Positions 41,481-63,856 of a stretch of DNA of 64,000 bases are shown in pieces. Numbering within the stretch: position 1 is the stretch's first letter; the number at the start of each line of letters is the position of its first letter. The stretch lies in assembly GCF_000948975.2 (NCBI RefSeq), contig NZ_CP059735.1, forward strand, positions 372,001-436,000, given 5' to 3'. The notes beneath the pieces are model-generated. The model was not told where the DNA came from, did no database searches, and saw only the letters and a list, made by a program, of their open reading frames with translations. The DNA comes from Thalassomonas actiniarum. GTDB lineage: Bacteria; Pseudomonadota; Gammaproteobacteria; Enterobacterales; Alteromonadaceae. The position numbers were made by a program, and so were the translations under genes.

Positions 41481-41482
41481 GA

Positions 41483-45543: not shown

Positions 45544-46179
45544 TTAAAACCAGGTTTCCGGGATCACTATGATATCTCCGGGTAAGACGTCGACATTGGC
45601 ACTGATTTCACCATTTTTCAGCAGGTCTTCAATCAGGACCTGATATTCCATTTGCCGGCCGTTTTCGATTCTTACCAGGGTGGCGTCATTGCCGTCGGCA
45701 AATTCCGTCAGTCCGCCGACCAGGATCATGACATCGAGCAAGGTCATATTTTGTTTGTAATTTACCGCCTGGGGTTGTGCTGCTTCCCCTATCACCCGGA
45801 TTTGCTCGGTGATCGGGCCGACAAATTCGTTTACCGTGACCGTAACCACAGGATCGCGCAAATACGTGGCCAGGATCTCTTCGATGGAGCGGGCAAGTTC
45901 GGTCGGGGTTTTGCCCGATACCTGGATGTCTTCCACCAAAGAGGTGGTGATCATGCCGTCGGGGCGGACAACAAAAGTCCCTGAGACTTCCGGGTTACGC
46001 CAAACAAAGATATTGAGGACATCGCCGGCACCGATTAGATATTTGTAGGAAGCCACATCACTGGTGGTCGACGGGTGAAGTGTCGCACTGGGCAGTCTCG
46101 GGCTGCTGCAGCTGAAAATGAACTGCGTCAGCAGCAATAACATTAGAACTTTAAGCTTCTCAGAAATATGTAATTCCAT
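45544..46179 (-). CDS. Polysaccharide export (OPX/Wza-like) lipoprotein
   Basis: A 211-residue lipoprotein with a lipobox FIFSC at about residue 24 after a hydrophobic signal. Contains the Poly_export domain (YLIGAGDVLNIFVWRNPEVSG, about 46-67) and an SLBB-like part (RVIGEAAQPQAVNYKQN). OPX proteins form the periplasmic/outer-membrane exit for polysaccharide. Short, as in XrtA-system versions (TIGR03027). AAAGG lies 9 nt before the ATG. First gene of the leftward export operon, divergent from the sugar transferase gene. Confidence 0.9.
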   Translation of the reverse strand: MELHISEKLKVLMLLLLTQFIFSCSSPRLPSATLHPSTTSDVASYKYLIGAGDVLNIFVWRNPEVSGTFVVRPDGMITTSLVEDIQVSGKTPTELARSIEEILATYLRDPVVTVTVNEFVGPITEQIRVIGEAAQPQAVNYKQNMTLLDVMILVGGLTEFADGNDATLVRIENGRQMEYQVLIEDLLKNGEISANVDVLPGDIIVIPETWF

Positions 46180-46539: not shown

Positions 46540-47943
46540 ATGTCAAGCCCCAAGTTCCGTGACCTGTCTGCGGGTAGTAAATCTCTTGTCCTGATCGAAC
46601 TCGGCATCTTTGCCGGGGCCCTGTTGTTTTCGGTTTATTTGAATAGTGTATTTTTGTTTGTTGAACAGCCTGACACCCCGAATAACCTGGTGATAGCCTA
46701 TGCTTTGCTTTTTGCCCTGATCATGCAACTGACCTCGCTGGCACTGGGGTTATATAACTCTAAGTTGCGGGAAAGTATCCGCGGCGTGGTCCGCCGTATC
46801 CTGGTGTGCGTGGCGATAGGTTTTTTTGTTTTTTCTCTGATTAATCCTTTTCTGGGCAGTCATCCGCTGCCGGTGGAACTGCTGGCCCTGTCTTCGTTTT
46901 TGAGTTTGCTGGTCATGGGGATCTTCAGGGCCTTTACCCTTAAGGTCGACTTCTTTGGTTTTAACAAACGTAATATTCTGGTGCTCGGCGCGGGTGAAAG
47001 GGCGTCTATTATCGAGCAGCGCATGCGCCGCGATGTTGACCGCCAGGGCTTTCATGTCCATGCCTTTGTGGTCATGCCGGGGGATCACGAAGCGGGTATC
47101 GTTAAAGAAACCCGCATTGAGCTGGAAGAGTCCCTGGTCAATTACGCCATGGAAAACCAAATCGATGAAATTGTCGTCGCCAGTGACGAACGCCGCAATA
47201 ACCTGCCGGTGGATGAGTTATTTGCCTGTAAAATTCGCGGTATTGAAGTGACCGAGATCCTGGACTTTATTGAACGGGAAACCGGGCAGGTTGCCGTCAA
47301 CCTGATTTACCCGAGCTGGGTGATCTATTCCAACGGTTTTGCTTCCGCCAATTACCTGAGAAATACCCTGGACTGGATTTTTAATGCCTCCATGGCCTTT
47401 ATTATGCTGCTCTTTACTTGGCCGGTAATGCTGATCACCGCCTTGATCATCAAGCTGGATGACGGCTGGAAATCGCCCGTGTTTTATTTCCAGGAAAGGG
47501 TCGGTCTGGACGGCGAACCCTTTAATATCATCAAGTTTCGCAGCATGCGCGTTGACGCCGAGAAAAACGGTGCCCAGTGGGCGTCGAAAAATGATGACAG
47601 AACCACGCGCATCGGTCACTTCCTGCGTAAATACCGGGTGGATGAATTGCCGCAAATTTATAATGTGATGCGCGGTGACATGGGCTTTGTCGGTCCCCGT
47701 CCCGAGCGTCCGGAATTTGTCCAGACCCTGGTCACCAATATTCCTTATTACAACGAGCGCCATAATGTTAAACCCGGTTTGACCGGTTGGGCCCAGTTGA
47801 AATATCCCTATGGCGCCACCGAAACCGATGCCATGGAAAAACTGAAATACGATCTTTACTATATTAAGCATCGCAGCTTTTTGCTGGATATGCTGATCCT
47901 GGTGAGAACGGCGGAAATTGTCTTGTTCGGCAAAGGCCGGTAA
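46540..47943 (+). CDS. Exopolysaccharide initiating sugar transferase (EpsB/WcaJ-type)
   Basis: A 467-residue membrane protein starting the repeating unit by moving a sugar-1-phosphate from a nucleotide sugar onto undecaprenyl phosphate. About four N-terminal membrane helices (1-130) and a CoA-binding-like middle domain (NILVLGAGERASIIEQRM) precede the C-terminal bacterial-transferase domain (about 270-467) with KFRSMRVDAEKNG, FLRKYRVDELPQIYNV and GDMGFVGPRPERPEF. It matches the PEP-CTERM-system family TIGR03013. A strong hairpin follows before the precursor genes. Confidence 0.9.
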   Translation: MSSPKFRDLSAGSKSLVLIELGIFAGALLFSVYLNSVFLFVEQPDTPNNLVIAYALLFALIMQLTSLALGLYNSKLRESIRGVVRRILVCVAIGFFVFSLINPFLGSHPLPVELLALSSFLSLLVMGIFRAFTLKVDFFGFNKRNILVLGAGERASIIEQRMRRDVDRQGFHVHAFVVMPGDHEAGIVKETRIELEESLVNYAMENQIDEIVVASDERRNNLPVDELFACKIRGIEVTEILDFIERETGQVAVNLIYPSWVIYSNGFASANYLRNTLDWIFNASMAFIMLLFTWPVMLITALIIKLDDGWKSPVFYFQERVGLDGEPFNIIKFRSMRVDAEKNGAQWASKNDDRTTRIGHFLRKYRVDELPQIYNVMRGDMGFVGPRPERPEFVQTLVTNIPYYNERHNVKPGLTGWAQLKYPYGATETDAMEKLKYDLYYIKHRSFLLDMLILVRTAEIVLFGKGR

Positions 47944-47969
47944 CTTTCCCGCCGCCATCGAATTAATAG

Positions 47970-48006
47970 AAAAGTCAGGATCTCTTTTATCCTGACTTTT
48001 ACTTTT
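47970..48006 (+). terminator. Strong hairpin between the sugar transferase and manC
   Basis: A perfect 12-bp stem (47970-47981 with 47989-48000) with a 7-nt loop, followed by ACTTTTT. A terminator or attenuator that could make the transferase more abundant than the downstream precursor enzymes, or separate two units. Confidence 0.75.
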
Positions 48007-48037
48007 TATGCAATAATAAAAGGGAGCTTGTAACTAA

Positions 48038-49459
48038 GTGTCTAATTTTTATCCTGTTATTTTGTGCGGGGGCAGTGGCACCCGACTCTGGCCACTTTCA
48101 AGAAAGCAGCATCCTAAACAGTTCATTAAGCTGACCAATGATTTTACTATGGTGCAAAACACCATCAAACGCCTGCCGGAAAATGTCCAGTCGCCTATTT
48201 TTATCTGTAACGAAGAACACAGGTTTATTGTTGCCGAACAGGCCCGGGAAGTCAGTGTCGAGGCGAAAAGCATTTTGCTGGAGCCGGTGGGTCGCAATAC
48301 CGCCCCGGCTATCGCCCTGGCGGCGATCACGGCGTTAAAAGAAAATAAAGACGCCGTTTTACTGGTATTGGCCTCAGATCATAATATCAAAGACGAAGAC
48401 ATGTTTCGTCAGGCGGCGCAAAGCGCTTATGGGCTTGCGATGCAGGATAAGCTGGTGACCTTCGGCATAGTGCCTTCCAATCCCCATACCGGTTATGGCT
48501 ATATCAAAAGAGGCGAAGAACTCGGCCCTAAGGCGAGCCAGTATAAGGTCAGTGAGTTTGTTGAAAAACCGGATGAAGCGACGGCGAAAACCTATGTCGA
48601 TTCGGGGGAGTATTACTGGAACAGCGGCATGTTTGTGTTTAAGGCCAGCAAGTTTCTGTCGGAGTTGAAAACCTTCCGTCCCGATATTTTTGAGGCCTGT
48701 GAACGGGCGATGCAGGATGTTGCCGATGATCTCGATTTTACCCGGGTCAATAAAGCGGCTTTTGAGGCCTGCCCGGACGAGTCCGTCGATTATGCGGTGA
48801 TGGAGCATACCGAACATGCGGTGGTGGTGCCGCTTGATGCCGGCTGGAGTGATGTCGGCTCCTGGTCGGCGTTATGGGAAGAATCCGAGCGTGACGGCAA
48901 TAACAATGCTATCCGCGGCGATGTTCTGACCGAGTCCACCACCAACAGCTATATCCAGGCTTCCGACCGTCTGGTGAGCAGTATCGGGCTGGACAATATC
49001 GTGATTATCGATACCCCGGATGCGCTTTTGGTGGCCAATAAAGATGACGTGCAAAACGTCAAAGGCATAGTGGATAAACTTAAAGGGCTGGATCGCTCCG
49101 AATATATCCATCACCGGGAAGTTTACCGTCCCTGGGGCAAATATGACAGTGTCGATAGCGGCGGCCGTTTCCAGGTGAAACGTATCACGGTAAAACCCGG
49201 GGCCAAGCTGTCGGTGCAGATGCATCATCACAGGGCGGAGCATTGGGTCGTGGTTTCCGGCACCGCCAAGGTCAGAAACGGCGATAAGGAATTTATCCTG
49301 ACGGAAAATGAATCTACCTATATCCCTATCGGTGCGGTACACAGCCTGGAAAATCCGGGTAAGTTGCCGCTGGAGCTGATTGAAGTGCAGTCGGGCTCTT
49401 ATTTGGGAGAAGATGATATTGTCAGGCTTGCCGACAAGTACGGCAGGAGTGAGCAATAA
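48038..49459 (+). CDS. manC: Mannose-1-phosphate guanylyltransferase / mannose-6-phosphate isomerase
   Basis: A 473-residue bifunctional enzyme making GDP-mannose and interconverting fructose-6-P and mannose-6-P. The N-terminal nucleotidyltransferase domain carries [19 protein letters not shown] and [10 protein letters not shown]. The C-terminal cupin domain has [15 protein letters not shown] with metal-binding His residues. Length and two-domain order match AlgA/ManC. The GTG start is preceded by AGGGAG. Its stop overlaps the phosphomannomutase start (TAATG). Confidence 0.93.
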
Positions 49460-50826
49460 TGACCAGCTTAACTTGTTTTAAGGCTTATGATATCCGCGGT
49501 AAGCTCGGCGATGAGCTGAATCCGGATATCGTTTATCGTATCGGCCGGGCTTTTGCCCAGTATTTAAATGCGAAAAAAGTGGTGATCGGCGGTGATATCC
49601 GTTTGTCGACGCCCGAGCTGAAATCAGCGCTGGCGGACGGCATCATGGCGGCGGGTTGTGATGTTATCGATATCGGCTTATGCGGTACCGAAGAAATTTA
49701 TTTTGCCACCAGCCATCTCAATACCGACGGCGGTATCGTGGTCACCGCCAGCCATAATCCCAAAGATTATAACGGCCTCAAGCTGGTGCGGGAAAACAGC
49801 AAACCCATCAGCGGCGATACCGGATTATTCGATATCCGGGCAATTGCCGAGCAAAGCCTGTTTAGCCGGGTGGAGCAGCAGGGCAAGTTAACGCAAGTCT
49901 CTAACCTGGATGATTATGTCGGCCATCTATTAACCTATATTTCACCTGAGAAACTTAAACCGCTTAAACTGGTGGTAAACGCCGGTAACGGCGCCGCCGG
50001 TCATGTGGTGAATGCCCTGGAGCAGGCCTTTCAAGAGCAAAAGCTGCCGGTGGAGTTTATTAAAGTTTTTAACGAACCGGACGGAAACTTTCCCAATGGT
50101 ATTCCCAATCCGCTCTTGCCCGAGAACCGCGGCGTTACCCGCGAGGCGGTGATCAAACATAAAGCGGATATGGGCATCGCCTGGGACGGTGACTTCGACC
50201 GCTGTTTCCTGTTTGATGAGAACGGCGACTTTATCGAAGGTTATTATATTGTCGGCTTGTTGGCGGAAGCCTTTTTACAAAAACACAGCCATGAAAAGAT
50301 CATCCATGATCCCCGCCTGACCTTAAATACCATAGATATTGTTGAAAACAACAAGGGCATTGCCATTCAAAGCAAAACCGGCCATGCCTTTATCAAAGAG
50401 CGCATGCGCCTGGAAAATGCCGTTTATGGCGGTGAAATGAGCGCCCACCATTATTTCAGGGATTTCAATTACTGCGACAGCGGTATGATCCCCTGGTTGC
50501 TGGTGGCTGAGCTGATCAGCCTGACCGGCACTTCCCTGTCGGCCATGGTCAGTGACCGTATCGCCAAGTTCCCGTCTTCCGGGGAAATAAACCGTAAGGT
50601 AGCCGATGCGGATCTGGTACTGGCCAAGGTTGATGCACATTACCGGGACTCTGCCCGTGAGAAGGAAGAAGTGGACGGTTTATCGCTGGCCTTTGACGGC
50701 TGGCGTTTAAATATACGTAAGTCTAATACCGAACCTCTGCTGCGCCTCAATATAGAGTCTGAAGGGGATGTTGATTTGATGGAAAGGAAAACCCGGGAGC
50801 TGATCGCTTTTATTGAAAGCGTTTAG
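49459..50826 (+). CDS. manB: Phosphomannomutase (ManB/CpsG-type)
   Basis: A 455-residue alpha-D-phosphohexomutase. Domain markers: [15 protein letters not shown] near the start, phosphoserine loop [13 protein letters not shown] (Ser near residue 98), the metal loop [14 protein letters not shown] and the C-terminal [14 protein letters not shown]. It converts mannose-6-P to mannose-1-P for the preceding ManC enzyme. Coupled to manC by TAATG, so the two form a GDP-mannose precursor pair. The substrate could also be glucose phosphates (dual-specificity members exist). Confidence 0.92.
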
Positions 50827-50884: not shown

Positions 50885-52903
50885 ATGAAACCCGTGCATT
50901 TCACTTTTTTACTGTTATTGGCTTTGGCAGCCACAAGCTTGTCCGGTTGTGGCGGCGATTCCGGCGATGCCGGTACTCCGGCCAGCAATCCCCCTAAAAA
51001 AGAGCAAAACCTGGCGCCGGTGATCTTGGGTGAGCCGTTAACGGTGATCGGCTTTAACGAAGAATACCAGTTTCTGCCCCAGGTCAGCGATGACGGTAAG
51101 AGTAAACTGGTATTTAGTATCGCCAACAAACCCGCCTGGTGTTCGTTTAACGCCGCCAACGGTCGTTTAACCGGCTTACCGTTTTCTACCGAAGCCGGCT
51201 TATATTCTGATATTGTAATTTCTGTTTCCGACGGCATCCATAGCGTTTCATTGCCGGCTTTTTCAATCCGGGTCAGGGAAAGTATGCTGTTGCATCTCTC
51301 CGGGGAGCCGAAAGCCTTTTCCACCCTGGGCAATGAATATCGGTTTAAGCCGGGTATAGCGTTGTCGTCGAATATAGATAAAGCCGCGGTGAGTTACGCT
51401 ATCAGCAACCAACCCGGTTGGATGACCTTTGACAGCATTACGGGGGAGTTAAGCGGTGTGCCGGGCACGGCAGATCTCGGCTGGTATAAAGGCATAGTGA
51501 TCAGCGCCAGCTACCAGGATGTCACCACAGAATTTCCTGCCTTTGATATTGAAGTACGGCCATTGTCTAACTTTGTGATCGGTAAGCAGATGATCGAGCC
51601 AGATTATGCTACATCTGTGCCGGCAAAAGGCGAGAAACGGATTGATGCCACTACAGGAGCTGAGTTGATACGGTTAACGGATGCGGCGGAGCTTAAAAAT
51701 TCCGATGATGCCATGATCGTTTATTCCCGTTATAGCCCGGAGAATATCAAGGGTGATGCCTTGCTGGTGTTTGGCACCGACTCCTACTCAAGTTGGGTGG
51801 TCAATCCCGATAGCGGCGACATTATTGCCGCCCTGGTGGATGATAAAGGCAAGCCTATCGGCGAAAAGCATGAGCTGCGCTGGCACGGCAGTGCAAAGCA
51901 CCCTAACCGGGTTTATTATATTAAAGGCATGCAGTTTTGGATGATAGATGATGTCACCCGCCAGGAGCAAACCCGCAAGCTGATCCGCGATTTTTCCTCT
52001 TTGTTCCCTAATGCGGTAAAAATTTATAATGATGTCGAGGGCGACAGCTCCAATGACAGCGACCACTGGGCCTGGATGGCGGTGCATTATGGCGTTAATT
52101 ACATCGGCCATAAAAGTTTTCTGGTGGACGGCTTTATTCATTATCAGGTGAGTACCGACACGGTACACACCCTGACGCCCGGCGATTTGGCCGGTACTAA
52201 CCTGGCGCTGGAAAGCAAAAGTGCCAGTTTCCGTCACCGCCCCAATATGGTGGAAGTCTCGCCCCTGGGGACCGGCATAGTGATCCATACCGGGCGTATG
52301 TGGGACGATACCGCTTATGGCGGCAGCAAAAAAGATTTTATCGGTACCTGGTTTGACGGGCCGCATTTGTGGCCGCTGGACTTTGATCACAGTAAAAAGG
52401 CGCCGGTTAAAATCTCTGTCACCGAAACCCATTCCGGCTGGTCATTTAATGACAGCGGGCAGGAAGTGTTTGTCAGTCAGAATAACCGTACCGATAAGCT
52501 CGATGCTGTTGTCGTGGACGGAGAAAATTCAGGTTTTGATAACCGGCTTGAAGTTGCCAGCCATAAGGATTTCGGCTGGAATATGGGCTTTCATTACGGC
52601 AAAATGCCGCCGTCTAAACCCGGTTGGTTGTTTATGAGTAGTTACAGCAAACAGTCGGATCTATGGGCCGGTAACCAGCTGATGATGATCCAGTTGGTGC
52701 CTGAATCAGAGCGGCCGGTGATTTGGCGTATCGCCCCTACCTATACGCTCTATAACGGTAATTATCGTGATGAGGTGCCGGCTGCGGTTAATTTTAGCGG
52801 CGACCGGATATATTTCTCTTCAAACTGGGGCGGCATGCTGGATCACCGCGAAGTTTTTCAGATCAAGTTGCCCAGTGACTGGCATAACCGCATTGGTCGA
52901 TAA
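50885..52903 (+). CDS. Lipoprotein with two putative-Ig repeats and a propeller-like domain
   Basis: A 672-residue lipoprotein: signal with lipobox LSGC (Cys near residue 21), two putative-Ig (He_PIG-like) repeats (about 45-135, with KPAWCSFNAANGRLTGLP; about 140-228, with QPGWMTFDSITGELSGVP), and a C-terminal domain of about 444 residues made of repeated short beta elements, probably a beta-propeller. This C-terminal domain is shared with the 836-residue protein encoded at 55331-57841, including KIYNDVEGDSSNDSDHWAWM and HSGW-F-D-G-E-F-SQNNR. No catalytic motif is recognised. A polysaccharide-binding, polymer-modifying or adhesin role is inferred from the setting. Confidence 0.75.
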   Translation: MKPVHFTFLLLLALAATSLSGCGGDSGDAGTPASNPPKKEQNLAPVILGEPLTVIGFNEEYQFLPQVSDDGKSKLVFSIANKPAWCSFNAANGRLTGLPFSTEAGLYSDIVISVSDGIHSVSLPAFSIRVRESMLLHLSGEPKAFSTLGNEYRFKPGIALSSNIDKAAVSYAISNQPGWMTFDSITGELSGVPGTADLGWYKGIVISASYQDVTTEFPAFDIEVRPLSNFVIGKQMIEPDYATSVPAKGEKRIDATTGAELIRLTDAAELKNSDDAMIVYSRYSPENIKGDALLVFGTDSYSSWVVNPDSGDIIAALVDDKGKPIGEKHELRWHGSAKHPNRVYYIKGMQFWMIDDVTRQEQTRKLIRDFSSLFPNAVKIYNDVEGDSSNDSDHWAWMAVHYGVNYIGHKSFLVDGFIHYQVSTDTVHTLTPGDLAGTNLALESKSASFRHRPNMVEVSPLGTGIVIHTGRMWDDTAYGGSKKDFIGTWFDGPHLWPLDFDHSKKAPVKISVTETHSGWSFNDSGQEVFVSQNNRTDKLDAVVVDGENSGFDNRLEVASHKDFGWNMGFHYGKMPPSKPGWLFMSSYSKQSDLWAGNQLMMIQLVPESERPVIWRIAPTYTLYNGNYRDEVPAAVNFSGDRIYFSSNWGGMLDHREVFQIKLPSDWHNRIGR

Positions 52904-53749
52904 TTTTATTCGGCTGAGTTGTCTGGCGTTTATGTCGCGGCGAAAGTTGTGGCTGCATAAACGCTTTGATTTGAGTTTTTAAGTAAAGCCGGAGTGCCGG
53001 ATTCGTTTGCCCCGGTATGGGAGTAGCATACCGGCAGCTTGATTATGGGCAGAAAATAATAGCAATTTTATTAAATATCTAACCATCTTCGGATGGTCTA
53101 AATCTCCAAGTGCTGCGTTGTTTTCAATCACAATAGCTTGTATTGCTCAATCAAACGCCTCGCCTGCATGGATGCAGGTGCTTAGCTTTAGTCTGGAACG
53201 ATAAAGGGGTTTCTTGAAAATTTATCCTCACCGAATTTTGGTCATCTGCTTAATGCAATTGGTATAACTTGTCAGCAGGGTAGTCTGCACCTGGCATTTC
53301 AGCTTATCACTGCTTTGGTCACGTTTTTTATTGTTAAAGCTGTAAACGGCTTTTTATATGAAAATATGATGCCGGAGAATCACGAATAATCCAATTTTTT
53401 AGCTGCTTAGCAATTAACTTTCTTTATAGATTGTTGTTTAGGGCCATTTAAAGCTAAAGTGCTGTCATTATGTTGTTTTGCTTTAATTCCATACGTTTTT
53501 CGCTGGTTTTATGTGCATTTTTGCTTTGTTAAAGCTGGAAATACGATATTGTTAGTATTTTTATTTCTAACTATTTCATGCGCTTAAATAAGGAATGTGC
53601 TTTTTTCTTATTTATTTCACCTGTTGAGGTTATTTGAGTATATAATGCGCACAAATTTAATAGGTTTCTAGAGTGGATAATTTTTGAGTAAGTGAAGGCA
53701 CCTGTTTTTTTACTGTTTAAAATATCTGATACTGCGAATAGGTGGAGTT
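52904..53749. other. Long non-coding interval (846 nt)
   Basis: No gene is seen. It includes hairpins: 53012-53019 with 53027-53034 (8 bp), ACCATC-TTCG-GATGGT near 53080-53097, and CCTGCA-TGGA-TGCAGG near 53163-53178. The middle part (about 53050-53280) resembles a dispersed non-coding element rather than decayed coding sequence. The last 450 nt are very AT-rich and lead into pssD. Confidence 0.4.
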
Positions 53750-54235
53750 TTGAAAAAAAAGTTACTGGTTGTACGTGATGGTGGTGGTTTTGGTTTTGAA
53801 ACAAGTCGATTGTATAGCCAATTGAAATCCGAATTTGATCTCTCTTTTTTGGTTCCCCAAGACAAAAGAATGAATAGGGAAATTTCCGAAGATAATTGGT
53901 TTGAAGTCGAGAAGATCACTTCTATCTATGAAAAAAATAAACTGAAATTGTTTTTTGCCTTTATGAAATCCATGTTTCAAATTGCTTCGTTACAACGTCG
54001 CCATAAATTTGAGACCTTGCTTTGTGTCGGATCTTCTATTGCCGTGCCTATGTTTATTGTCGGTACACTTTTTAGAACCAAGCGGGTATTTATCGAAAGC
54101 CATACCCGGGTTAATGATATCTCTTCTACGACTAAAATTTTATTAAAATTTGGTTTAGCGAATCGTATATATGTTCAATGGCCTGAACTGGCAAATCAGC
54201 ATGAAAAACTATTATATAAAGGGAATTTATTATGA
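53750..54235 (+). CDS. pssD: Alg14-like polysaccharide glycosyltransferase subunit (PssD)
   Basis: A 161-residue membrane-associated protein of the Alg14/PssD family. It begins KKKLLVVRDGGGFGFETSRL (the glycine-rich opening), with SIAVPMFIVGTLFRTKRVFIESHTRV in the middle. Alg14-like proteins anchor the catalytic Alg13-like partner at the membrane to add a sugar in the lipid-linked repeat unit. The TTG start is the only candidate; GGTGGAG lies right before it. Its stop overlaps the pssE start (ATGA). Markedly AT-richer than the flanking EPS genes. Confidence 0.8.
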   Translation: MKKKLLVVRDGGGFGFETSRLYSQLKSEFDLSFLVPQDKRMNREISEDNWFEVEKITSIYEKNKLKLFFAFMKSMFQIASLQRRHKFETLLCVGSSIAVPMFIVGTLFRTKRVFIESHTRVNDISSTTKILLKFGLANRIYVQWPELANQHEKLLYKGNLL

Positions 54236-54690
54236 TTTTCGTTACGGTTGGCACATTTTATTTTGACCCCCTGATCAAGGCTCTGGATGCGCTGGTTGCC
54301 AAGGGCGTGATCAAAGAGAAGGTTATCTGCCAAATAGGCAAGGGGCGGTATGAACCCAGTCACTGTGAGTATTTCAGATATACCCAGGAAATAGAGCCCT
54401 ATATTGCCCAAGCCGATTTAGTTATTTGTCACGGTGGAACCGGCTCGGTACTTAATTTACTGTTAGAAGAAAAGAAGTTTTTAGCGGTTGCCAATACTGA
54501 ACTGGCAGATGATCACCAAACCGAGTTTTTGTCTGCCCTGGCCAAAGATGTGCCAATCAGCTGGATAAGGGATTTGAATAAGCTCGAACAGGTGCTGGTC
54601 GGGGGCAATATCCAGCCGCTGCCTTTATCCGAATATGATTTTTTCAATTATAACTTATGTTCTGACTTGGTCGATTTCATTAAGGCCTAG
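54232..54690 (+). CDS. pssE: Alg13-like glycosyltransferase subunit (PssE)
   Basis: A 152-residue catalytic partner of PssD, matching Alg13: MIFVTVGTFYFDPLIKALDAL (N-terminal nucleotide-sugar fold) and the C-terminal half with ADLVICHGGTGSVLNLLLEEKKF (UDP-sugar-binding GGTGS loop). In Rhizobium and Sphingomonas, the two-protein GT28-type enzyme adds a glucuronic acid or glucose. Coupled to pssD by a 4-nt overlap, so equal amounts are expected. Confidence 0.85.
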   Translation: MIFVTVGTFYFDPLIKALDALVAKGVIKEKVICQIGKGRYEPSHCEYFRYTQEIEPYIAQADLVICHGGTGSVLNLLLEEKKFLAVANTELADDHQTEFLSALAKDVPISWIRDLNKLEQVLVGGNIQPLPLSEYDFFNYNLCSDLVDFIKA

Positions 54691-55330
54691 TGATTTTTAT
54701 CACTTATTTTCAATTTAGCGTACCGGGCTGTAGCCGGCCCGGTAAGCTTCAGTTTTTTAATAACATTGCACTCAGGTAGCAATACTTGAATTAACATCTG
54801 TTAATGTCATCATTGCCCGTTTTTACCTTTATTGACGAACAAAAGTGCGAATGAATCGCTTTTGCCTGCTCTATGGCTTCATTATCGGTATTTTGAGATT
54901 GTCATTTCTTTTTGTTGAGAGCCGGATTAAGAGGAATATATTGATGAATAGCAATGTTTTTTCTGTGTAACTAATTGTTTTTATGATGGATTTATTGGTT
55001 TGGCTCAGGTTTTGGCTGGTTTTTATTGAAGCTGAAATTTTTAAATTTATATTGCCTGGATAACCATTTGTTTTTGTAGTGTAAAAAAGCAGCATTTATG
55101 CTTATTTACAGTATAGTTACAAAATTTGTGTGTTTATTTTTTGAACAGCTATGGCTTTCTGATTTTGCTTTCATTAGAATGGCAAGCCACCGATAACCGG
55201 CGCGCCAGCAAGAGAGGTGTAATATCAAAGATTTACCCATACAGTAAAAAAAGGATACAGGTCAGTCGTATTTTTGCATTTATATGCTTAGGTTGACATA
55301 AAAAACATTAATGTTTGTTGAGAGGTCATT
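54691..55330. other. AT-rich intergenic region (640 nt)
   Basis: After the terminator-like hairpin at the left, the rest has no credible ORF (a leftward 74-codon frame at 54871-55095 has no support). AT-rich upstream region of the large secreted-protein gene. Confidence 0.45.
54721..54760 (+). terminator. Hairpin after pssE
   Basis: An 8-bp stem (54721-54728 with 54737-54744), an 8-nt loop and a T-run about 8 nt later. The T-tract is displaced, so termination is moderately supported. Confidence 0.45.
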
Positions 55331-57841
55331 ATGTTTAGGAAAGTTTCTTCAGCGTTGTCGCTATTTATTATGTTGTTTCTTAGTTTCAATGTTGCTGCAG
55401 TAGAAACAGTAACGTATCAGCAGGGAGCTAACGGTTTTAACGGGGCTACATCTACCATGTTTAGTGGCTCCAGAGCACAGAATTCTATCAGAGAATCTCA
55501 TTATTTCAGGTATGACGGTACTAACCGCTATTATAACCTGGAGCATTTTGACTTAGGCAATATCAGTCAGAAAAATGATATTTCTTCTGCCAAATTAATT
55601 TTTACCCGTGTCTCGGGCGGTGTTTATGTTGCCTCCGAGATATATGTCAGACAAATCCTGGATCCCGACAACTTAGGTCAGGCTTATGCCACCGGCTGGA
55701 AAGTTGGCTATGGCTTTCGCGCCGGCGCCAATAGCGAGTCCCGGGATGATTCTGCCGGTACCGATGTCAAGTGGCGCCTGTCAGACCCCGATTCTCCAGA
55801 AGATCTTAATGCCGATTATTTTCAGGGGGTCTTGAAAGATCTGGATCAATCTCCTTATTTTATCCCTCAAGCGGCCGATGCTATCGGTACCCAGTATGAG
55901 GTTGACGTGACCGCAGATCTGCAATGCATACAGCAAGGCACTTGTGTTAACCAGGGCTGGGCGCTGTTTCATGGCAACCCCAATGCCAATATTCAAAATA
56001 TTACCGCCAATTCCAATTATGCAACGGCCGAGTATCGCCCTATGCTGGTGGTCACTTATGGCATTGTTGATTCGAATGCTCCCAGAAGCAGACAGGCTAT
56101 CCAGCAAACGACTTTGTTGGAAGATGACAGCCGTGTTATCACCTTGACCATAGAAACCGATGAAGCGGCGAACTGTAAAGCCGATATCGACAGTGGCGAT
56201 GCTTTTGCCGCGATGGATATTAGCATGCAGGCATCCGGCGGTGACCTGATGCATACTTATGCGCTGAATGCCGATGAGCAGCCGGGCCAATTATATGTAA
56301 AATGCAGCGATAGCTCAGGCAATGTCAGTGATAACCTGCATACCTTTATTTTCACGGTTCAAGCCGGCAGTGATAACGGTGGCAGTGACGGCGGTACTGG
56401 CGGTACTGACGGTGGTACAGATGGCGGTACTGACGGTGGTACCGATGGCGGTACTGACGGTGGTACCGATGGTGGCACAGATGGTAGCTTTGTCCTGGGC
56501 AAAGAGGTGATCACCCCTGACTTTGGCACTGAAGCGCCGGCTATCGGCGAGTCTATTATCGACCCGACCACAGGCGCCAAGATCACCCGCTTAGCCGGTG
56601 ACGGTGTTGAAGATGCCTTAATCGTTTACTCCCGTTATTCTCCGGAAAACTCTGCCGGTGACTTGCTGCTGGTGTTCGGCAGCAATTCAACCTCAAGTAA
56701 AGTGATCAACCGCACCACCGGTGAAGTGGTTGCCAACCTTAACCATCAAGACGGCACTAGCATAGGTGAAAATCACGAAATACGTTGGGATACCTCAGGT
56801 AATCACCCTTACCGTATCTATTACATCAAGGGCATGCAGTTCTGGAAAATTGACGATGTCCGGGATCAGGAAAATACCCGGGTGATGATCAGAGACTTTA
56901 GTGAGTTATTCCCTAACTCCCTTAAGATTTACAATGATGTGGAAGGGGACAGCTCAAATGACAGTGATCACTGGGCCTGGATGGCGGTACATTACGGCCA
57001 GAACGAGTTTGGTTCATATACCTACTTAGTGGATGCCTTTGTCCATTATCAAGTCTCAACCGATACCGTACATACCCTGACCCCCAGTGATTTGGCGGGT
57101 ACCAACTTAGATGTAGAAGCCACTAAGGCTGAGGGCGCTGAGACCCCGATTTTTACTTACCGTCCGAATATGGTGGAAATGTCTCCTTTAGGCACAGGCA
57201 TCGTTATCCACACGGGTTATAAGTGGGATGATGCCGCCTATGGCGGAAGCGCTGTCAATTATATCGGTACCTGGTTTGACGGTGCCCACCTGTGGCCGGT
57301 AGATTTTGACTTTAATCGCCAGGCGCCGGTTAAAATCTCAATCAGTGAAACCCATTCCGGTTGGGCTTTTGATGAAAACGGCAGGGAGATGTTTATCAGC
57401 CAGAATAACCGTACCGACCGTCTTGATGCCATCTATGTTAATGGTGAAAATGCCGGCTATGACAACCGTATGGAAGTGGGTAGCCATGCCGATTTTGGCT
57501 GGGCCATGAGCTTCCATTACGGCAAGATGCCAGAAAGCAAGCCCGGCTGGTTGTTTATGAATACCTACTCTAAAGACGACACTCTGTGGGCAGCCAACCA
57601 GTTTATGATGATCCAAACGAAACCTGAAGAAGAGAATCCGGTGATCTGGCGTATCTCTCCCGCTTATAACGCTTATGACGGCGAATATCGGGATGAAGCA
57701 CCGGCGGCGATTAACCTGGAGGGTAACCGCATCTACTGGTCTTCAAACTGGGGCAATGTGGGTGACAAGCGTTCGGTGTATATGATTGAACTGCCGGACG
57801 ACTGGGATACTAAAGTCCTGGAGCAAGCGAACCTGCCATAA
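55331..57841 (+). CDS. Secreted protein with N-terminal CBM96/DNRLRE-like domain, GGTD linker and propeller-like domain
   Basis: An 836-residue exported protein (signal peptide FRKVSSALSLFIMLFLSFNVAA). Residues about 24-240 resemble the DNRLRE/CBM96 carbohydrate-binding type (YYNLEHFDL, SSAKLIFTRV, GTQYEVDVTADLQ). A region with an E-rich D-containing loop follows (about 250-345), then a G/T/D-repeat linker (about 351-385), then the roughly 450-residue propeller-like domain shared with the protein encoded at 50885-52903. There is no PEP-CTERM motif at its end (VLEQANLP). No enzyme motif is recognised; a polymer-binding or processing role in the EPS locus is an inference. Confidence 0.75.
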   Translation: MFRKVSSALSLFIMLFLSFNVAAVETVTYQQGANGFNGATSTMFSGSRAQNSIRESHYFRYDGTNRYYNLEHFDLGNISQKNDISSAKLIFTRVSGGVYVASEIYVRQILDPDNLGQAYATGWKVGYGFRAGANSESRDDSAGTDVKWRLSDPDSPEDLNADYFQGVLKDLDQSPYFIPQAADAIGTQYEVDVTADLQCIQQGTCVNQGWALFHGNPNANIQNITANSNYATAEYRPMLVVTYGIVDSNAPRSRQAIQQTTLLEDDSRVITLTIETDEAANCKADIDSGDAFAAMDISMQASGGDLMHTYALNADEQPGQLYVKCSDSSGNVSDNLHTFIFTVQAGSDNGGSDGGTGGTDGGTDGGTDGGTDGGTDGGTDGGTDGSFVLGKEVITPDFGTEAPAIGESIIDPTTGAKITRLAGDGVEDALIVYSRYSPENSAGDLLLVFGSNSTSSKVINRTTGEVVANLNHQDGTSIGENHEIRWDTSGNHPYRIYYIKGMQFWKIDDVRDQENTRVMIRDFSELFPNSLKIYNDVEGDSSNDSDHWAWMAVHYGQNEFGSYTYLVDAFVHYQVSTDTVHTLTPSDLAGTNLDVEATKAEGAETPIFTYRPNMVEMSPLGTGIVIHTGYKWDDAAYGGSAVNYIGTWFDGAHLWPVDFDFNRQAPVKISISETHSGWAFDENGREMFISQNNRTDRLDAIYVNGENAGYDNRMEVGSHADFGWAMSFHYGKMPESKPGWLFMNTYSKDDTLWAANQFMMIQTKPEEENPVIWRISPAYNAYDGEYRDEAPAAINLEGNRIYWSSNWGNVGDKRSVYMIELPDDWDTKVLEQANLP
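56379..56490 (+). repeat. GGT-GAC coding microsatellite (12-bp unit)
   Basis: Tandem repeats of a unit like GGTACTGACGGT alternating with GGTACCGATGGC, translating to repeated GGTD. Gives a flexible, probably length-variable linker between the carbohydrate-binding and propeller-like domains. Confidence 0.85.
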
Positions 57842-58258: not shown

Positions 58259-58984
58259 ATGGTTTTATTATATCCGTTTACCTTCTTAATTTTTATGATC
58301 ATTTTCACCTGCTTGATTGAAAGGTTAACCAGGGTCAAATTAAGCAAATTACGGATTTTTTGTTTTACTTGCCTCTATATCAGCTGTACGCCTTTATCTG
58401 CTAATTTAAGCATTTCCTTGCTTCAGTCAAAAATTAACTACCAGAACTGCGCAGGGGATATGAGCGGTACGATTCTGCTGGCCGGGGGGCTTTCAAAAAC
58501 GGCTTCCGGAAAAAATGACTGGAGTGCGCTGGGAGATGAGTCGCTAAGCCGCACCGTTTTTCTCGCTTCCCAACTAGCGCGGCTCAATAGCCAGTCGGTT
58601 ATTATCTCGGGGGGCTCCGGGAGCGGGATTAAGGAAGCTGAATTGATGACGGACTTGCTGGATAATCTCTATTCTGGCAAGCCGCTTGATATTATTGCCG
58701 ATGTTAATGCGATACGTACCCAAGAGTCGGCACTATTTGTTCGCGCTAACATGCCTGATGAAAATGCCGGCTATTACCTGGTAACGTCTGACTGGCATAT
58801 GGCAAGGGCACAAGCCATTTTTGAACATCACGGCATCAAGGTTTGCCCGCTAGCCAGCGGTGACAGTTATGTTCCCTACGGTTTTCCCGGCTGGTTTATT
58901 CCGCAAAAAAGCGCTTTGGCAAAATTTGAACTTGCCTGGCATGAATTAGGTGGCCTGCTGCTGTTGTGGTGGGCTAACCGTTAG
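58259..58984 (+). CDS. YdcF/SanA-family (DUF218) membrane protein
   Basis: A 241-residue protein with an N-terminal hydrophobic stretch and an anchor region (LIFMIIFTCLIERL and CLYISCTPLSANLSISLL), then the DUF218 domain (about 72-220): TILLAGGLSKTASG, SVIISGGSGSGIKEAELM, DVNAIRTQESALFV and YYLVTSDWHMARAQAIF. Family members act in cell-envelope integrity and polymer-related processes. It is 4 nt convergent with the GNAT-like gene. Confidence 0.8.
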   Translation: MVLLYPFTFLIFMIIFTCLIERLTRVKLSKLRIFCFTCLYISCTPLSANLSISLLQSKINYQNCAGDMSGTILLAGGLSKTASGKNDWSALGDESLSRTVFLASQLARLNSQSVIISGGSGSGIKEAELMTDLLDNLYSGKPLDIIADVNAIRTQESALFVRANMPDENAGYYLVTSDWHMARAQAIFEHHGIKVCPLASGDSYVPYGFPGWFIPQKSALAKFELAWHELGGLLLLWWANR

Positions 58985-60081
58985 CGCTTAGCCGAACTTC
59001 TTTTTATTTTAGTCAGGGTATGCAGGGCCTTTAACCACCAGGATGAAATGATACGTACGCTAACCTGGGGCTGGAGCTTATTGGCCAGGTATTGCTTATA
59101 GGGATCCGACTGGCCGCCGCCGGGCAGCAGCTGTAATTGCTTTAATCCCTGGCTATAACCCTGTTCGATGACATAACCCAGATGTAAGAAGCCGAGGGAA
59201 AGTTTGCTGTTATAGTGAGGGTCAAAGGCGTATTGCAGAAAATAACCCTGGTTATCGCAGGAAAAACCAAAAAAAGCCGATTGCGCCTGATTGTCCATAA
59301 CCATCATGGAAGACAGCAGGGAGATCTCCTGGCTTTGACTGCATAAGTCGGTAAACATTTGCTGGAACTTGAGTCTTTGGTTTTCATAAACTTTTTTGTT
59401 CCAGCGGCGGAGCTTAAGCCGGTTTAATTGTTCGATAAAAGCATCGCTTTCCTGAAAATCTACCGTTTTTAACTCCAGCTGCCCGGCGATAAAACGCCGG
59501 TGCAAAAGGGTTTTTTGTCTGATTTTCTTTTTTAACTTTTTACAGAAACTATCAAAATCTTCATTGAAATCGACAATATAGTTGATGGTCCGGGATAAGA
59601 TTTCCAGGGATTTATTGCCTTTCAAAGTTCTGAGCAGACGAAAAACATGGCTGTTGCGGCTGGCGCTTTGGATCAGGCAGGTATGCCAGGACAGCTTGTT
59701 TATTGCCCGGTGCAATACCAGATCTATGGCGGTTATATCCGATTGGCGATCAATTATAAAATCCAGGTTGTCGCTGCGCACCGCATCATGGATATCATAA
59801 CTGCAGCCGATAAATTGCAGCTGCCTGACGGTCAGCAGTTTTTTGATGCGCTTTTGATGGCTGAACAGGGGAGCCAATGCCACCAGTTGCTCTTGGTCAT
59901 AAACGGCTATGATATGCAGTTGGGGCTTTTGACAGCTGCAGTTTTTCCACCAGGCATATTGCCATTGCCAGGATAAAAACAGCCGGTCGGCATCGCTTCT
60001 AGCCAGTAATTGTTGCCACAGCTGGCGGTTTTCGCTAAAGACCTGTTCATCCCAGATCCTGAAAGTTAACTGACTAGACAA
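58981..60081 (-). CDS. FemAB/GNAT-like (CelD/BcsL type) acetyltransferase-fold protein
   Basis: A 366-residue cytosolic protein of the type annotated as FemAB- or CelD-like GNAT. It begins LTFRIWDEQVFSENRQLWQQLLARS and includes FLSWQWQYAWWKN, the central KKIRQKTLLHRRF and YSQGLKQLQLLPGGGQSDPYKQYLANK at the C-terminal end, which resembles the family's active-site region. Relatives occur with XrtA exopolysaccharide loci and bacterial cellulose genes. Donor and acceptor are unknown. Last gene of the leftward operon of this end, 16 nt after the asparagine-synthase-like gene. Confidence 0.7.
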   Translation of the reverse strand: MSSQLTFRIWDEQVFSENRQLWQQLLARSDADRLFLSWQWQYAWWKNCSCQKPQLHIIAVYDQEQLVALAPLFSHQKRIKKLLTVRQLQFIGCSYDIHDAVRSDNLDFIIDRQSDITAIDLVLHRAINKLSWHTCLIQSASRNSHVFRLLRTLKGNKSLEILSRTINYIVDFNEDFDSFCKKLKKKIRQKTLLHRRFIAGQLELKTVDFQESDAFIEQLNRLKLRRWNKKVYENQRLKFQQMFTDLCSQSQEISLLSSMMVMDNQAQSAFFGFSCDNQGYFLQYAFDPHYNSKLSLGFLHLGYVIEQGYSQGLKQLQLLPGGGQSDPYKQYLANKLQPQVSVRIISSWWLKALHTLTKIKRSSAKR

Positions 60082-60097
60082 AAATGCTTACCCTGCT

Positions 60098-61939
60098 CTA
60101 TAAGGTCCGGGAGATCCATTTGCTGATCCCGGCAATATGGAAGATATGCCCGCTGGCGCGGGTTTTGTTCTCGGCAATCGCGGCAAAAAATGACGCTATG
60201 CGGTTGCTGTCGGTAATATTACCGCTTAACAGCCAGTTACGGGCAATATCTCTCAACTGTCGGTTGTCTTTAAACCAGTGCCCCCAGTTGCTAAAGTGCA
60301 GGCTTTTTTCTTTATAACGGTCGTTAAAACCCGGAATATAGATGCCCTTGCCGTTTAAAATCGACGCCCATTTATGGGCAGCGGCAGGGTAGGTAGCCGG
60401 TACCAGGGTACGGCTATAGGGGATCTGGGCAAAATCCGGGTAATTGTCTTTTAATGCCCTGAGCTGCCCCCGGCGGTAGGCCGCCTGCATCGGGGAAAGT
60501 TCGAGGCAGGTGTAAATCAGCTCTTTGTCTAAGCCCAAGGGGTAGTTGACCTTGAGAAACTGCCTGGCGTTGACTCCCTGGCTCAGGGTGTAGTTAACCG
60601 AGCGGTTGGCGGCGGTAATATTCCTGAAGATATAAGCAACAGAGTCGGTATGTTGTGCAAACCGTTTTACTTCGGTGCAGATATCATCGAGTATCGCAGG
60701 TTTTGCCTGTTTGATGGCACCGATAAAGTCGGGATCCAGGTACTGGCTCAGCTGATCATAGCTTTTAACCAGGTTGGCGCTGTCGAAATAGGCCTCGGCA
60801 ATGGCTTCGGTGGAATGTTTTGCCGTGCTCTGATCGATAAACAAGCCCAGGTACTTGGCCAGTTTGCTCACCGGCGATAAATAACTGTCGTTATGGAAAA
60901 AATCGCCGCCGAGGAAAACGTCGATCAAAAAGCCGTCGTTAACCGAGTTAAAGCCTCGCTGTGCCATCAGCTCGGCGAAAAAATAACGCTCGGGAAAGCA
61001 GGCCAGGCCGCTGAAATCAAAGATATTCTCTATCATGGCGGCAATATCGCCGCCGTCCGGGATCACGTGGTGCAACGGCTCGTTATTAAGCCTGGCCACC
61101 TGTTCGGCAAATTCTATTTCTGCCGACTGCGGCGCGCCGTAGGTAAAATGCTCCAGCGGGTGATCTTTGGGCCAGGCGGCGGTAACCATTCTCGAGTCCA
61201 GGCCGCCGCTGAGAAAAGAAGCGGTTTTCCCTGAGATGTGCGCTACCCTGCTGCAGGCCTTATTGATCAGCTGGGCGTACTTTTTCTTGCGGTAGTTCTG
61301 CCGCTCGGGAAAGGTTTCAAACAGGTTGTTATGGCCTTTAAGGATTTTGCTGGTTTTTCGGTTTAAGTCATACTCCAGACAGCAATTGGCCGGTAATTTA
61401 TTGAGCTCCCGGGTGATATGGCGGGAGCCGAAGGCGTAGCCCAAGTGGGCATAGGAGGCAACGCCTGTCATATCCAACGTGGTGGGGAATAAACCGGTAT
61501 TAAACAGGGCGATCGGGTTGGTGCTGATCACAGTTCCCTGGTTCGACTTGGCATAATATAAGGGGATAGAGCCGATAAAGTCATTTAAAAACAGCACTTT
61601 TTCTGCTTTTTTATCCACTATGGCCAGGTTGAAGCTGCCGGCGGCAATGGCGGCTATCACTCCCTGATAACCGTGTTTGAGGTAAATGGTTTCTATGGCT
61701 GCCAGCGACTGTTGCAGTGTGCAGTCCCGGTCCGTTAACGCCAGGCTGCCGTCGATGAAAATCAGGGTGTGCTCACTCTGATAATAACTGTCATCATAGC
61801 TTTGGCCGTCAAACAGGAAAAAATCACTGCTTGGCGTGATCTGGTTATGCCTGTAGGTCTCTGACGGATTAAAACGCCAAATCTCATCAAAAGCTTTTTT
61901 ATTGTCGGTTGCGGTGTCCTGAAAAAAGAGTCCGTGCAC
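60098..61939 (-). CDS. Asparagine-synthase-like amidotransferase, without the catalytic Cys2
   Basis: A 613-residue protein of the asparagine-synthase (AsnB) superfamily related to the XrtA-system amidotransferases. N-terminal glutaminase-like Ntn domain (1-190) and C-terminal synthetase domain with the PP-loop motif SGGLDSR at 244-250. The glutaminase nucleophile, normally Cys2 (MCG), is His here (start reads MHGLFFQD with GTG initiation, AGGGG RBS). So it may use free ammonia or catalyse a different amide/ester-forming ligation. It sits between the GT2 gene and the GNAT-like gene in a tight operon. Confidence 0.8.
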   Translation of the reverse strand: MHGLFFQDTATDNKKAFDEIWRFNPSETYRHNQITPSSDFFLFDGQSYDDSYYQSEHTLIFIDGSLALTDRDCTLQQSLAAIETIYLKHGYQGVIAAIAAGSFNLAIVDKKAEKVLFLNDFIGSIPLYYAKSNQGTVISTNPIALFNTGLFPTTLDMTGVASYAHLGYAFGSRHITRELNKLPANCCLEYDLNRKTSKILKGHNNLFETFPERQNYRKKKYAQLINKACSRVAHISGKTASFLSGGLDSRMVTAAWPKDHPLEHFTYGAPQSAEIEFAEQVARLNNEPLHHVIPDGGDIAAMIENIFDFSGLACFPERYFFAELMAQRGFNSVNDGFLIDVFLGGDFFHNDSYLSPVSKLAKYLGLFIDQSTAKHSTEAIAEAYFDSANLVKSYDQLSQYLDPDFIGAIKQAKPAILDDICTEVKRFAQHTDSVAYIFRNITAANRSVNYTLSQGVNARQFLKVNYPLGLDKELIYTCLELSPMQAAYRRGQLRALKDNYPDFAQIPYSRTLVPATYPAAAHKWASILNGKGIYIPGFNDRYKEKSLHFSNWGHWFKDNRQLRDIARNWLLSGNITDSNRIASFFAAIAENKTRASGHIFHIAGISKWISRTL

Positions 61940-61948
61940 AAATTGCCC

Positions 61949-63088
61949 CTAACGTTTCTTCCATAATTTTTCCGGAGTGGAAAACAAGTGTTTAAATAAG
62001 GCGAGAAAAGCCGCAATATTTAAAATAGCAAAGGTGGCCGGCACATTGAAGATACCGGCATTTTTCCCCTGAACCAGTTTTTTATAACCATAATAGGCAC
62101 AAGCATAAAAGCCCAGCTGCAGCGCCAATAAAAAATTAAAAATCATGTCTTGTAAGACGATACAAGCGGCAAAGAGCAGGATCAAGGCAAAAGGCACCAG
62201 CAAGCGGCAGACCTTATGGGAAAACCACTGCCAGAAAATAGGGTTTTTAAACGGGTTATTGAGCCAGGGCAGGATTTTCATCAGCTGGTAGTTGCCCGCC
62301 AGGGTGCGGACCTTGCGGCCAAACTCTTCTTTGACACTATGGCTGGAGCTGTCAAAGGCCAGGGCCTTGTTGGCCATGACCACACGTTTGCCGGCTTTGA
62401 CAATGCACATGGGCGTATAGACATCGTCTAAAATGGTGTGTTGTTGCAGCGGCGTAAACAATTGACTGCGGATCATGTAAATGGCACCGGTGACACCGAC
62501 CACAGAGTTGATCTGGCCTTCGGCGTGGCGGATGGCTTTTTCATATTTCCAGTAGAGGCCGGGATCTTTGGAAGCACCGTCATCCTGGTTTTGCTCTATC
62601 ATCAAATTGCCGGTGACCGCCCCTACCGCTTCATCGCTGAAATGCTGACACATTTGCTCGAGGGCGTCCGGGGCAAAATCCTGGCGTAAATCGGCAAAGG
62701 CCACTAACGGGGTTGTGACCTGGGCCATTGCCAGGTTGATTGCCGCGGCTTTACCCCGGTTCTGCTCCTGCTCAATAACGCTCAGGCGCTCAAAATCATA
62801 GGCCTTGGCGACTGCCACGGTATTGTCGGTGGAGCCGTCGGAAACCATAATAATATGCAGTTTCTCCAGCGGGTAGCGGGTGGCCAGCAGGTTATCCAGA
62901 CGGGCGGTGATCCTGTGTTCGCCATTATAGGCGGCTAACACCACAGTGACCTCGGGGAAATCCTCCGGGGTCATTTCTCTTGATTCCTCGCTGTCATCGA
63001 GCTTGCGGCTGAGCAACATCAGCAGCAGCGGATAGCCTATATAGGCATAAAAAATGACGGCGGCACTGATGAAAAAAATGACTTCCAT
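61949..63088 (-). CDS. Family 2 glycosyltransferase with C-terminal membrane helices
   Basis: A 379-residue processive-looking GT2. One N-terminal helix (VIFFISAAVIFYAYIGYPLLL), then the GT-A domain: VTVVLAAYNGEHRI, MVSDGSTDNT, FADLRQDFAPDAL (DxD-region variant), GVTGAIYMIR, with QQHTILDDVY and SSSHSVKEEFGRKVRTLAGNYQ, and two or three C-terminal helices (from about 295). Resembles poly-N-acetylglucosamine synthase-type and related polysaccharide synthases. The neighbouring deacetylase suggests that it adds or polymerises a N-acetylated sugar. 9 nt before the next gene's start. Confidence 0.85.
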   Translation of the reverse strand: MEVIFFISAAVIFYAYIGYPLLLMLLSRKLDDSEESREMTPEDFPEVTVVLAAYNGEHRITARLDNLLATRYPLEKLHIIMVSDGSTDNTVAVAKAYDFERLSVIEQEQNRGKAAAINLAMAQVTTPLVAFADLRQDFAPDALEQMCQHFSDEAVGAVTGNLMIEQNQDDGASKDPGLYWKYEKAIRHAEGQINSVVGVTGAIYMIRSQLFTPLQQHTILDDVYTPMCIVKAGKRVVMANKALAFDSSSHSVKEEFGRKVRTLAGNYQLMKILPWLNNPFKNPIFWQWFSHKVCRLLVPFALILLFAACIVLQDMIFNFLLALQLGFYACAYYGYKKLVQGKNAGIFNVPATFAILNIAAFLALFKHLFSTPEKLWKKR

Positions 63089-63091
63089 AGT

Positions 63092-63856
63092 TTAAACTCT
63101 TATCAACTTACTGCGGATTTTTTCATAATTTTTATTGCCCAACAGACGCTTGGCCAGGGTGAGTACCTGCTGGACGATAATAGCCTTCCAATACAACATG
63201 CCGGTGCCCGAGAGCATATTGGCCAATACCTTGATACTGGTGTTGCTGGTCATGGTGATACGGTTTATCGGCTGTTTTTGCTTGTTATGGCCCAATACCG
63301 AAGTGGCGATATAGGAATAACCTAATTTCTGGTACAGGGGTAATACCTGCTTTAAACCTCTGCCGCCGGGCAGGGCAACGGTATGTACCGGGTGCTGGGT
63401 GGCTGCTTCCACCTTTTGTTTGCTGATCTTCAGCTCCTGCTCCAGTGCTTCTGGCTCCAGGTCCGACATATAGGCATGGGTTTGGCCATGGGCCTGTATG
63501 CTCATGCCTGCCTGGTGCATTTCCAGCAGCTGCTGACCGGACATATAACCCGGGGTGTCTATCCAGTCGCTGGTGATATAAAACTCCGCCAGCATATTGC
63601 GCTTTTTCAGTTCGGGAAAGGCGAAGCTGTAGTTGGAGACATCACCGTCATCGAAGGTGATCACCACGGGCTTTTGATATTCGCCGCTCAGCGCCTGCTC
63701 CAGGGTCACGGCCTGGTACTGGTTGGCCAGCAGGTAATCAAGTTGTGCAACAAATGACTCTCGGGTCACGCTGTAGACGGCATCGAAGCAGCCGTCGCAT
63801 TCCGGGGTGGAATGTATGCCGTGATACATCAGGGAAGTAAAAGAAATCTTGCTCAT
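63092..63856 (-). CDS. Polysaccharide deacetylase (CE4, XrtA-system type)
   Basis: A 254-residue CE4 esterase. Motif 1 TFDDG at 67-71 and motif 2 HGQTH with H123 and H127 provide Asp and His metal ligands; the YHG opening (MYHGIHS) is family-typical. It probably removes N-acetyl groups from the exopolysaccharide or its precursors. It has no evident signal peptide, as in other XrtA-system deacetylases (TIGR03006). The ATG overlaps the previous gene's TGA (ATGA). Belongs to the same leftward operon. Confidence 0.85.
   Translation of the reverse strand: MSKISFTSLMYHGIHSTPECDGCFDAVYSVTRESFVAQLDYLLANQYQAVTLEQALSGEYQKPVVITFDDGDVSNYSFAFPELKKRNMLAEFYITSDWIDTPGYMSGQQLLEMHQAGMSIQAHGQTHAYMSDLEPEALEQELKISKQKVEAATQHPVHTVALPGGRGLKQVLPLYQKLGYSYIATSVLGHNKQKQPINRITMTSNTSIKVLANMLSGTGMLYWKAIIVQQVLTLAKRLLGNKNYEKIRSKLIRV

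Follow-up and report, generated by a model that had tools for sequence, protein, structure and literature searches.

Depolymerases are encoded in some exopolysaccharide (EPS) loci, among them AlgL, of family PL5, and ExoK, of family GH16. AlgL lowers the yield of alginate and affects biofilm (PMC5099689), and the occurrence of a lyase in another such locus would thus not be strange. Many EPS loci also hold unnamed secreted proteins. For loci of the XrtA/PEP-CTERM (EpsH) type, the words "propeller" and "lyase" are absent from the founding paper (PMC1569441). Propeller lyases acting on uronic-acid polymers occur in families PL24, PL25, PL40 and PL42, one of which is known from Thalassomonas, and the seven-bladed propellers of family PL22 (Pfam PF14583; PDB entries 3pe7 and 3c5m) are oligogalacturonate lyases.

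Here we describe two paralogous genes, CORE1 and CORE2, located in a stretch of 64,000 nucleotides of the Thalassomonas actiniarum genome (contig NZ_CP059735.1, positions 372,001 to 436,000), which is referred to below as the window. On the evidence of profile comparisons and a predicted structure, their common C-terminal core is a so far unnamed seven-bladed-propeller family, a PL22-like sister that is not PL22 itself.

The exopolysaccharide locus and its paralogous genes

Judged from its gene content, the window is an exosortase-A (XrtA/PEP-CTERM) EPS locus. Its relevant features are as follows, the strand being given in brackets, with a dot for gene sets to which no single strand is assigned:

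36864..46179 (.) XrtA/PEP-CTERM EPS machinery (NCBIfam)
46540..50826 (+) EpsB_2 sugar transferase, mannose-1-P guanylyltransferase and phosphomannomutase (Pfam/NCBIfam)
50885..52903 (+) CORE1, a lipoprotein with two Ig-like (He_PIG) stretches and a C-terminal, predicted PL22-like propeller core (ORF, Pfam, core homology)
50885..50950 (+) lipoprotein signal peptide of CORE1, ending in the lipobox LSGC (Cys22) (read from the translation)
51059..51274 (+) He_PIG putative Ig domain, the best of two stretches, CORE1 residues 59-130 (Pfam)
51572..52900 (+) predicted propeller core of CORE1, residues 230-672 (homology, AlphaFold2 pLDDT 89, fold searches)
53750..54235 (+) PssD-like half of a two-part glycosyltransferase, Alg14-like (Pfam Alg14, E=7e-12)
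54232..54690 (+) PssE glycosyltransferase partner (NCBIfam PssE, 136 bits, cut-off 120)
55331..57841 (+) CORE2, with signal peptide, N-terminal region, GGTD linker and predicted PL22-like propeller core (ORF, homology)
55400..56368 (+) N-terminal region of CORE2, with a weak DNRLRE match (NCBIfam; AlphaFold2)
56390..56485 (+) tandem repeat encoding the GGTD linker of CORE2 (repeat search)
56489..57838 (+) predicted propeller core of CORE2, with His675, His729, Tyr786 and Glu789 at positions equivalent to those of CORE1 (homology, alignment)
58259..63856 (.) EPS-type genes: DUF218/ElyC, GNAT acyltransferase, amidotransferase, GT2 and polysaccharide deacetylase (Pfam/NCBIfam)

The set at 36864..46179 comprises PrsK, PrsR, the XrtA ATPase, the TIGR03016 outer-membrane protein, a tyrosine (auto)kinase, the chain-length determinant and the export protein, all of which, together with EpsB_2, score above their NCBIfam cut-offs. 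Directly past the window end lies an exosortase gene (L091:357-1856), scoring 148.6 bits with TIGR02602, over the cut-off of 105.55, and 182 bits with the XrtA-specific model, under its cut-off of 208, and genes for PrsT and two PEP-CTERM proteins are also found directly beyond the window end. In these respects the locus resembles the described XrtA/PEP-CTERM loci, but CORE1 and CORE2 themselves carry no PEP-CTERM tail, their C-termini (...SDWHNRIGR and ...VLEQANLP) being without a transmembrane stretch.

The PssD-like gene product scores 83 bits with the NCBIfam PssD model, below its cut-off of 110. PssDE of R. leguminosarum adds glucuronic acid (PMC1403797), and an NDP-sugar dehydrogenase gene is also present in the region, about 21 kb beyond the window. 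Together these make an acidic polymer plausible and, by analogy, uronic acid a likely constituent of the EPS of this strain, a Cps14FG-type specificity of the PssD-like/PssE pair being a conceivable alternative to that of a PssDE glucuronosyltransferase.

CORE1 and CORE2 consist of 672 and 836 amino acids, respectively, and BLASTP aligns residues 230-670 of the former with residues 387-829 of the latter, with 290 identities over 448 positions (65%, 627 bits, E=0.0), well above what chance would give. The sequence NDVEGDSSNDSDHWAWM is identical in both proteins and the elements HSGW and SQNNR are common to both. Purifying selection is evident on the core, with dN/dS about 0.05-0.13 between orthologues and close paralogues. 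The front ends are unrelated: that of CORE1 has the lipobox and the Ig-like stretches (He_PIG, E=9e-12), while CORE2 carries an ordinary signal peptide, an N-terminal region with a DNRLRE match that is weak (E=1e-3, 19 bits vs a cut-off of 34) and for which AlphaFold2 yielded no confident structure (pLDDT 44.5), and a GGTD linker whose coding sequence is a 24-bp tandem repeat (56398-56472). A preliminary description of this DNA had proposed both a shared core of about 445 residues and an exchange of front ends around it, and on both points it holds. A further repeat, a 51-bp direct repeat of 2.3 copies (98% match) at 57895-58009, lies between CORE2 and the DUF218 gene and falls in no credible gene.

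Relationship of the core to PL22

Searches with single core sequences against Pfam, NCBIfam, PHROG and the PDB revealed no named family. A diverse 38-row profile (A4) yielded one clear PDB match, to the oligogalacturonate lyase 3pe7 (E=3.1e-5), the next match being at 0.019. The AlphaFold2 model of the core, generated from 37 core rows with the phage row left out, attained a pLDDT of 89.0 and a pTM of 0.89, and the first three PDB structures ranked by Foldseek were all PL22 (E 3e-11 to 7e-11), followed by a WD40 domain (2e-8). VIA-align gave Z scores of 26.7 (337 residues, 3.6 A) and 26.4 for 3pe7 and 3c5m, the next being 20.2. The core, earlier termed propeller-like, is accordingly modelled as a seven-bladed propeller of the PL22 type. 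Structures of the PL24, PL25, PL40 and PL42 propeller lyases, with which the core gave no sequence match, were not among the top fold matches listed by either Foldseek or VIA. WD40 propellers also score well and the fold match by itself therefore proves no function.

Comparison of the core profile by hhalign with an alignment of seven annotated PL22 sequences (A7) gave a probability of 98.0 and E=2.5e-13 over 351 columns; the alignment is colinear along its whole length, and the two families share an R-x-T opening motif. A TolB propeller, used as a control against the core profile, also scored (probability 96.4, E=1.3e-9), with a partial match of 213 columns, and thus part of the score is common to all propellers, while the full-length and better match is that to PL22. 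Several properties set the core apart from PL22: it is exported, it follows Ig-like or other modules at the N-terminal side of the same protein, and its sequence identity to PL22 is about 12-15%. In a tree, a split supported at 100/100 divides the 37 core rows from the seven PL22 rows, and the branches are long. The PF14583 model matched no row of alignment A5 at E<=10 under HMMER's filters; a search of 143 genomes with it gave no match either, but the controls also matched nowhere there and the search is uninformative on absence. Filing the core under PL22 was rejected, given the unmatched Pfam model, two differing ligand positions and its place outside the PL22 clade. The preliminary description did not recognise the core as an enzyme; a lack of resemblance to any enzyme is not supported, since profile search, Foldseek, VIA and hhalign all indicate a remote but specific kinship to PL22 oligogalacturonate lyase. 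A match to a characterised enzyme, which that description had named as one of two refuting outcomes, thus applies in part, at the level of fold and active-site positions, and stops short of membership in the PL22 family.

The PL22 manganese was reportedly found by Abbott et al. in 2010 to be held by three histidines and a glutamine, with a histidine as the base, and the metal is confirmed by the PDB title of 3pe7. We take the ligands to be H287, H353, H355 and Q350 and the base to be H242. H242, H287, H353 and H355 are invariant in the seven PL22 sequences, and Q350 is not. In the hhalign alignment, with no hand editing, core H287 falls on PL22 H242 and core H341 on PL22 H287, and these are the only histidines invariant in all 37 cores. 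Core Y51 also corresponds to Tyr37 of PL22. Core Y398 (37/37) falls on Q350, E401 (36/37) on H353, and position 403 on H355; this last is His in 18 of the 37 cores, Pro in 13, including both window proteins, and Phe in four, and among the Thalassomonas cores it is Pro in all but one, which has Ala. No conserved counterpart of PL22 Arg217 was detected in the core alignment. The corresponding residues are H516, H570, Y627, E630 and P632 in CORE1 and H675, H729, Y786, E789 and P791 in CORE2, and the codons in CORE1 are:

52430..52432 (+) His516 (core H287), aligned with PL22 H242, the proposed catalytic base (37/37)
52592..52594 (+) His570 (core H341), aligned with the PL22 metal ligand H287 (37/37)
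52763..52774 (+) Tyr627 to Glu630 (core Y398 and E401), aligned with the PL22 ligands Q350 and H353

The positions of the base and of one metal histidine are thus kept, whereas those of His353 and His355 are occupied by Glu and, in the window proteins, Pro. Since H353 is replaced by Glu, Q350 by Tyr and H355 by Pro in both window proteins, their metal site may be incomplete. The side chains of the two histidines, the tyrosine and the glutamate would probably meet in one pocket.

Proposed function and alternatives

Taking together the homology and predicted fold, the conserved residues, the signals for export and the locus, we infer catalysis, metal, substrate and role of the core family as follows. 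It would be an enzyme that is exported, depends on a metal and cleaves the acidic EPS of the cell itself at uronic-acid residues by beta-elimination, a tentative reading with nearly an even chance of being correct. The PL22-type active-site positions would be retained in altered form as two invariant histidines, a tyrosine and a glutamate, and the putative enzyme would trim or release the polymer after export, as do AlgL or ExoK elsewhere with unrelated folds. The likeness to these enzymes lies in the proposed role, that of an exported polysaccharide cutter encoded in the biosynthesis locus of the polymer; the activity of AlgL is known (PMC5099689), whereas that of the core is proposed. The exchanged front ends would set the place of action, CORE1 being a lipoprotein with Ig-like spacers and CORE2 being secreted with an N-terminal region of its own and a linker that is flexible. 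We favour a lyase-like function because the base and metal positions are kept, the core is under purifying selection, uronic acid is a likely constituent of the polymer, and a phage relative is encoded two genes after a host-specificity protein (see below). The altered metal site, the missing counterpart of Arg217, the copies unlinked to EPS markers and the variable presence of pssDE beside the propellers (see below) speak against it. With more reserve, we suggest that the core could represent a new PL family in which the PL22-type metal site has been rebuilt from two His, Tyr, Glu and sometimes a third His, a family exported and anchored through exchangeable front ends and processing bacterial EPS, that was also taken up by a phage in a protein meeting the polysaccharide of the host. 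The link to the PL22 fold, together with the named likely active-site residues, makes this a testable enzyme family. If active, it would provide a new way of cutting bacterial acidic EPS, of use in the study of biofilms and in polymer tailoring, and would show that a lyase fold known from the cytoplasm, with specificity for pectin, has an exported sister family serving polymer making.

The main rival to the lyase-like reading is a non-catalytic propeller in which the PL22-type pocket has turned carbohydrate-binding, CORE1 holding the EPS at the cell surface and CORE2 cross-linking the matrix. Such a protein could accommodate the change of H353 to Glu and the loss of H355, which is Pro in nearly all Thalassomonas cores, and its Ig-like and linker modules would be typical of adhesins and matrix proteins, as would fit the Ig/fn3/PKD-type domains on the phage relative. 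We nevertheless regard it as less likely than the lyase-like reading, given that the two histidines, the tyrosine and the glutamate are kept across 15-25% identity, which is more than a drifting binding site usually shows, and that half of the family has a histidine at the H355 position. A different chemistry in the same pocket, that of an epimerase, hydrolase or deacylase of EPS, appears improbable: it would be compatible with the retention of the base-position histidine and part of the metal site alongside the loss of Arg217 and two ligands, and with the EPS-modifying genes (deacetylase, GNAT) nearby, but the PDB profile search, Foldseek and VIA gave no sequence or fold match to such enzymes.

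There is also a slight chance that the proteins are food-gathering lyases for uronic-acid polymers of algae or plants and do not act on the cell's own polymer. Thalassomonas sp. LD5 degrades the algal polysaccharide ulvan with a PL25 lyase (PMC8955879), and several of the core copies stand alone in the genome. These stand-alone copies, though, lie amid housekeeping, GGDEF and chemotaxis-type genes, where no CAZyme cluster was recognised, while the slot in the EPS locus holds a propeller gene in four Thalassomonas genomes and linkage to EPS genes is seen in other genera too.

Copies, relatives and linkage to polysaccharide genes

This genome carries four full-length cores, two of them far from the window; the third copy is closely similar to CORE2, and the fourth, more distant from it, has an N-terminal region of the same type. 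The cores of CORE2 and the third copy (G000:C1:4905160-4906488, L003) show a dS of 0.14 within this genome, below the values of 0.21 and 0.28 obtained with their orthologues in the nearest relative, which points to gene conversion between the two.

Cores are present in three other Thalassomonas genomes, and with this genome these make up the four of 196 genomes, all of one genus, that had a core in the sample of the taxonomic family; none was found in the rest of that sample. A scan of genome contigs with a two-row alignment independently detected the core in the record of Thalassomonas sp. RHCl1 and gave matches in Thalassomonas only. Profiles A2 and A3, built stepwise to reach distant relatives, revealed cores with 15-27% identity in other Gammaproteobacteria and in a further class of the phylum to which Thalassomonas belongs, which we take to be Alphaproteobacteria; an Acidobacteriota plasmid and the Xanthomonas phage LucasX also carry such cores. 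Occurrence of the family is rare and patchy, with eight positive genomes of 369 in the class sample and one of 289 in the sample of the other class. Targeting varies across the family, as the preliminary description anticipated, from lipoprotein and signal peptide to PEP-CTERM-like tail and phage protein. The tails, VPIPGALLLMASSLIGLLGF and VPLPGAVYLMGSALVGLFGF, occur in two distant relatives (L070:8972-10870 and L071:8974-10425) and their NCBIfam matches are weak.

Linkage to polysaccharide genes was assessed by locating Poly_export and Bac_transf genes in 20 genomes with cores, at a distance limit of 20 kb. Twelve of 31 core loci lie within this distance of a marker, compared with an expectation of 0.89, calculated from how much of each genome falls within marker range (genome sizes rounded), a count that takes related genomes separately and corresponds to about five genera of eleven as independent cases. 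Of the twelve, four are from Thalassomonas and six from two genera of the other class, in which 134-173 bp separate the gene from Poly_export; in two more genera, glycosyltransferases or a deacetylase lie beside the core (L064, L072). The suggested association with polysaccharide loci is therefore upheld overall, but most copies (19/31) are unlinked at 20 kb, including two of the four in this genome, which lie next to GGDEF, chemotaxis-type and housekeeping genes. Within Thalassomonas, the slot between the phosphomannomutase and DUF218 genes contains CORE1 alone, CORE2 alone (inverted), or CORE1-pssDE-CORE2, and hence pssDE does not belong to a constant unit: the arrangement described earlier, with the two genes flanking pssDE, was seen only in this genome and its nearest relative, the two other Thalassomonas genomes having one propeller gene and no pssDE in this slot.

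The LucasX relative, LUCX_246 (L043:4534-8052), is encoded by this jumbo phage of a xanthan producer two genes after the host-specificity protein and combines the propeller with Ig-type domains. No propeller was found in other phage records, and two single-protein scans of viral contigs gave one match, to the Ig-type part, in one scan and nothing in the other, so that the LucasX case looks isolated. On the small Acidobacteriota plasmid, Paludibaculum pPfer1 (L044:3034-7943), several propeller genes, one of which looks split in two, are located among MBOAT and glycosyltransferase genes. A tandem array at L067:7148-13190 has four propeller domains in three genes, one of them encoding a double propeller of 1042 aa, and a MurJ/Wzx-like flippase gene lies directly beyond it; the relative at L067:7148-8332 has a more complete set of ligand residues than the window proteins. 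In one gammaproteobacterial genome (L072:8041-15999), three divergent propeller genes are clustered within 8 kb; as in the window, there are GT2, GT4, DUF218 and GNAT-type genes close by.
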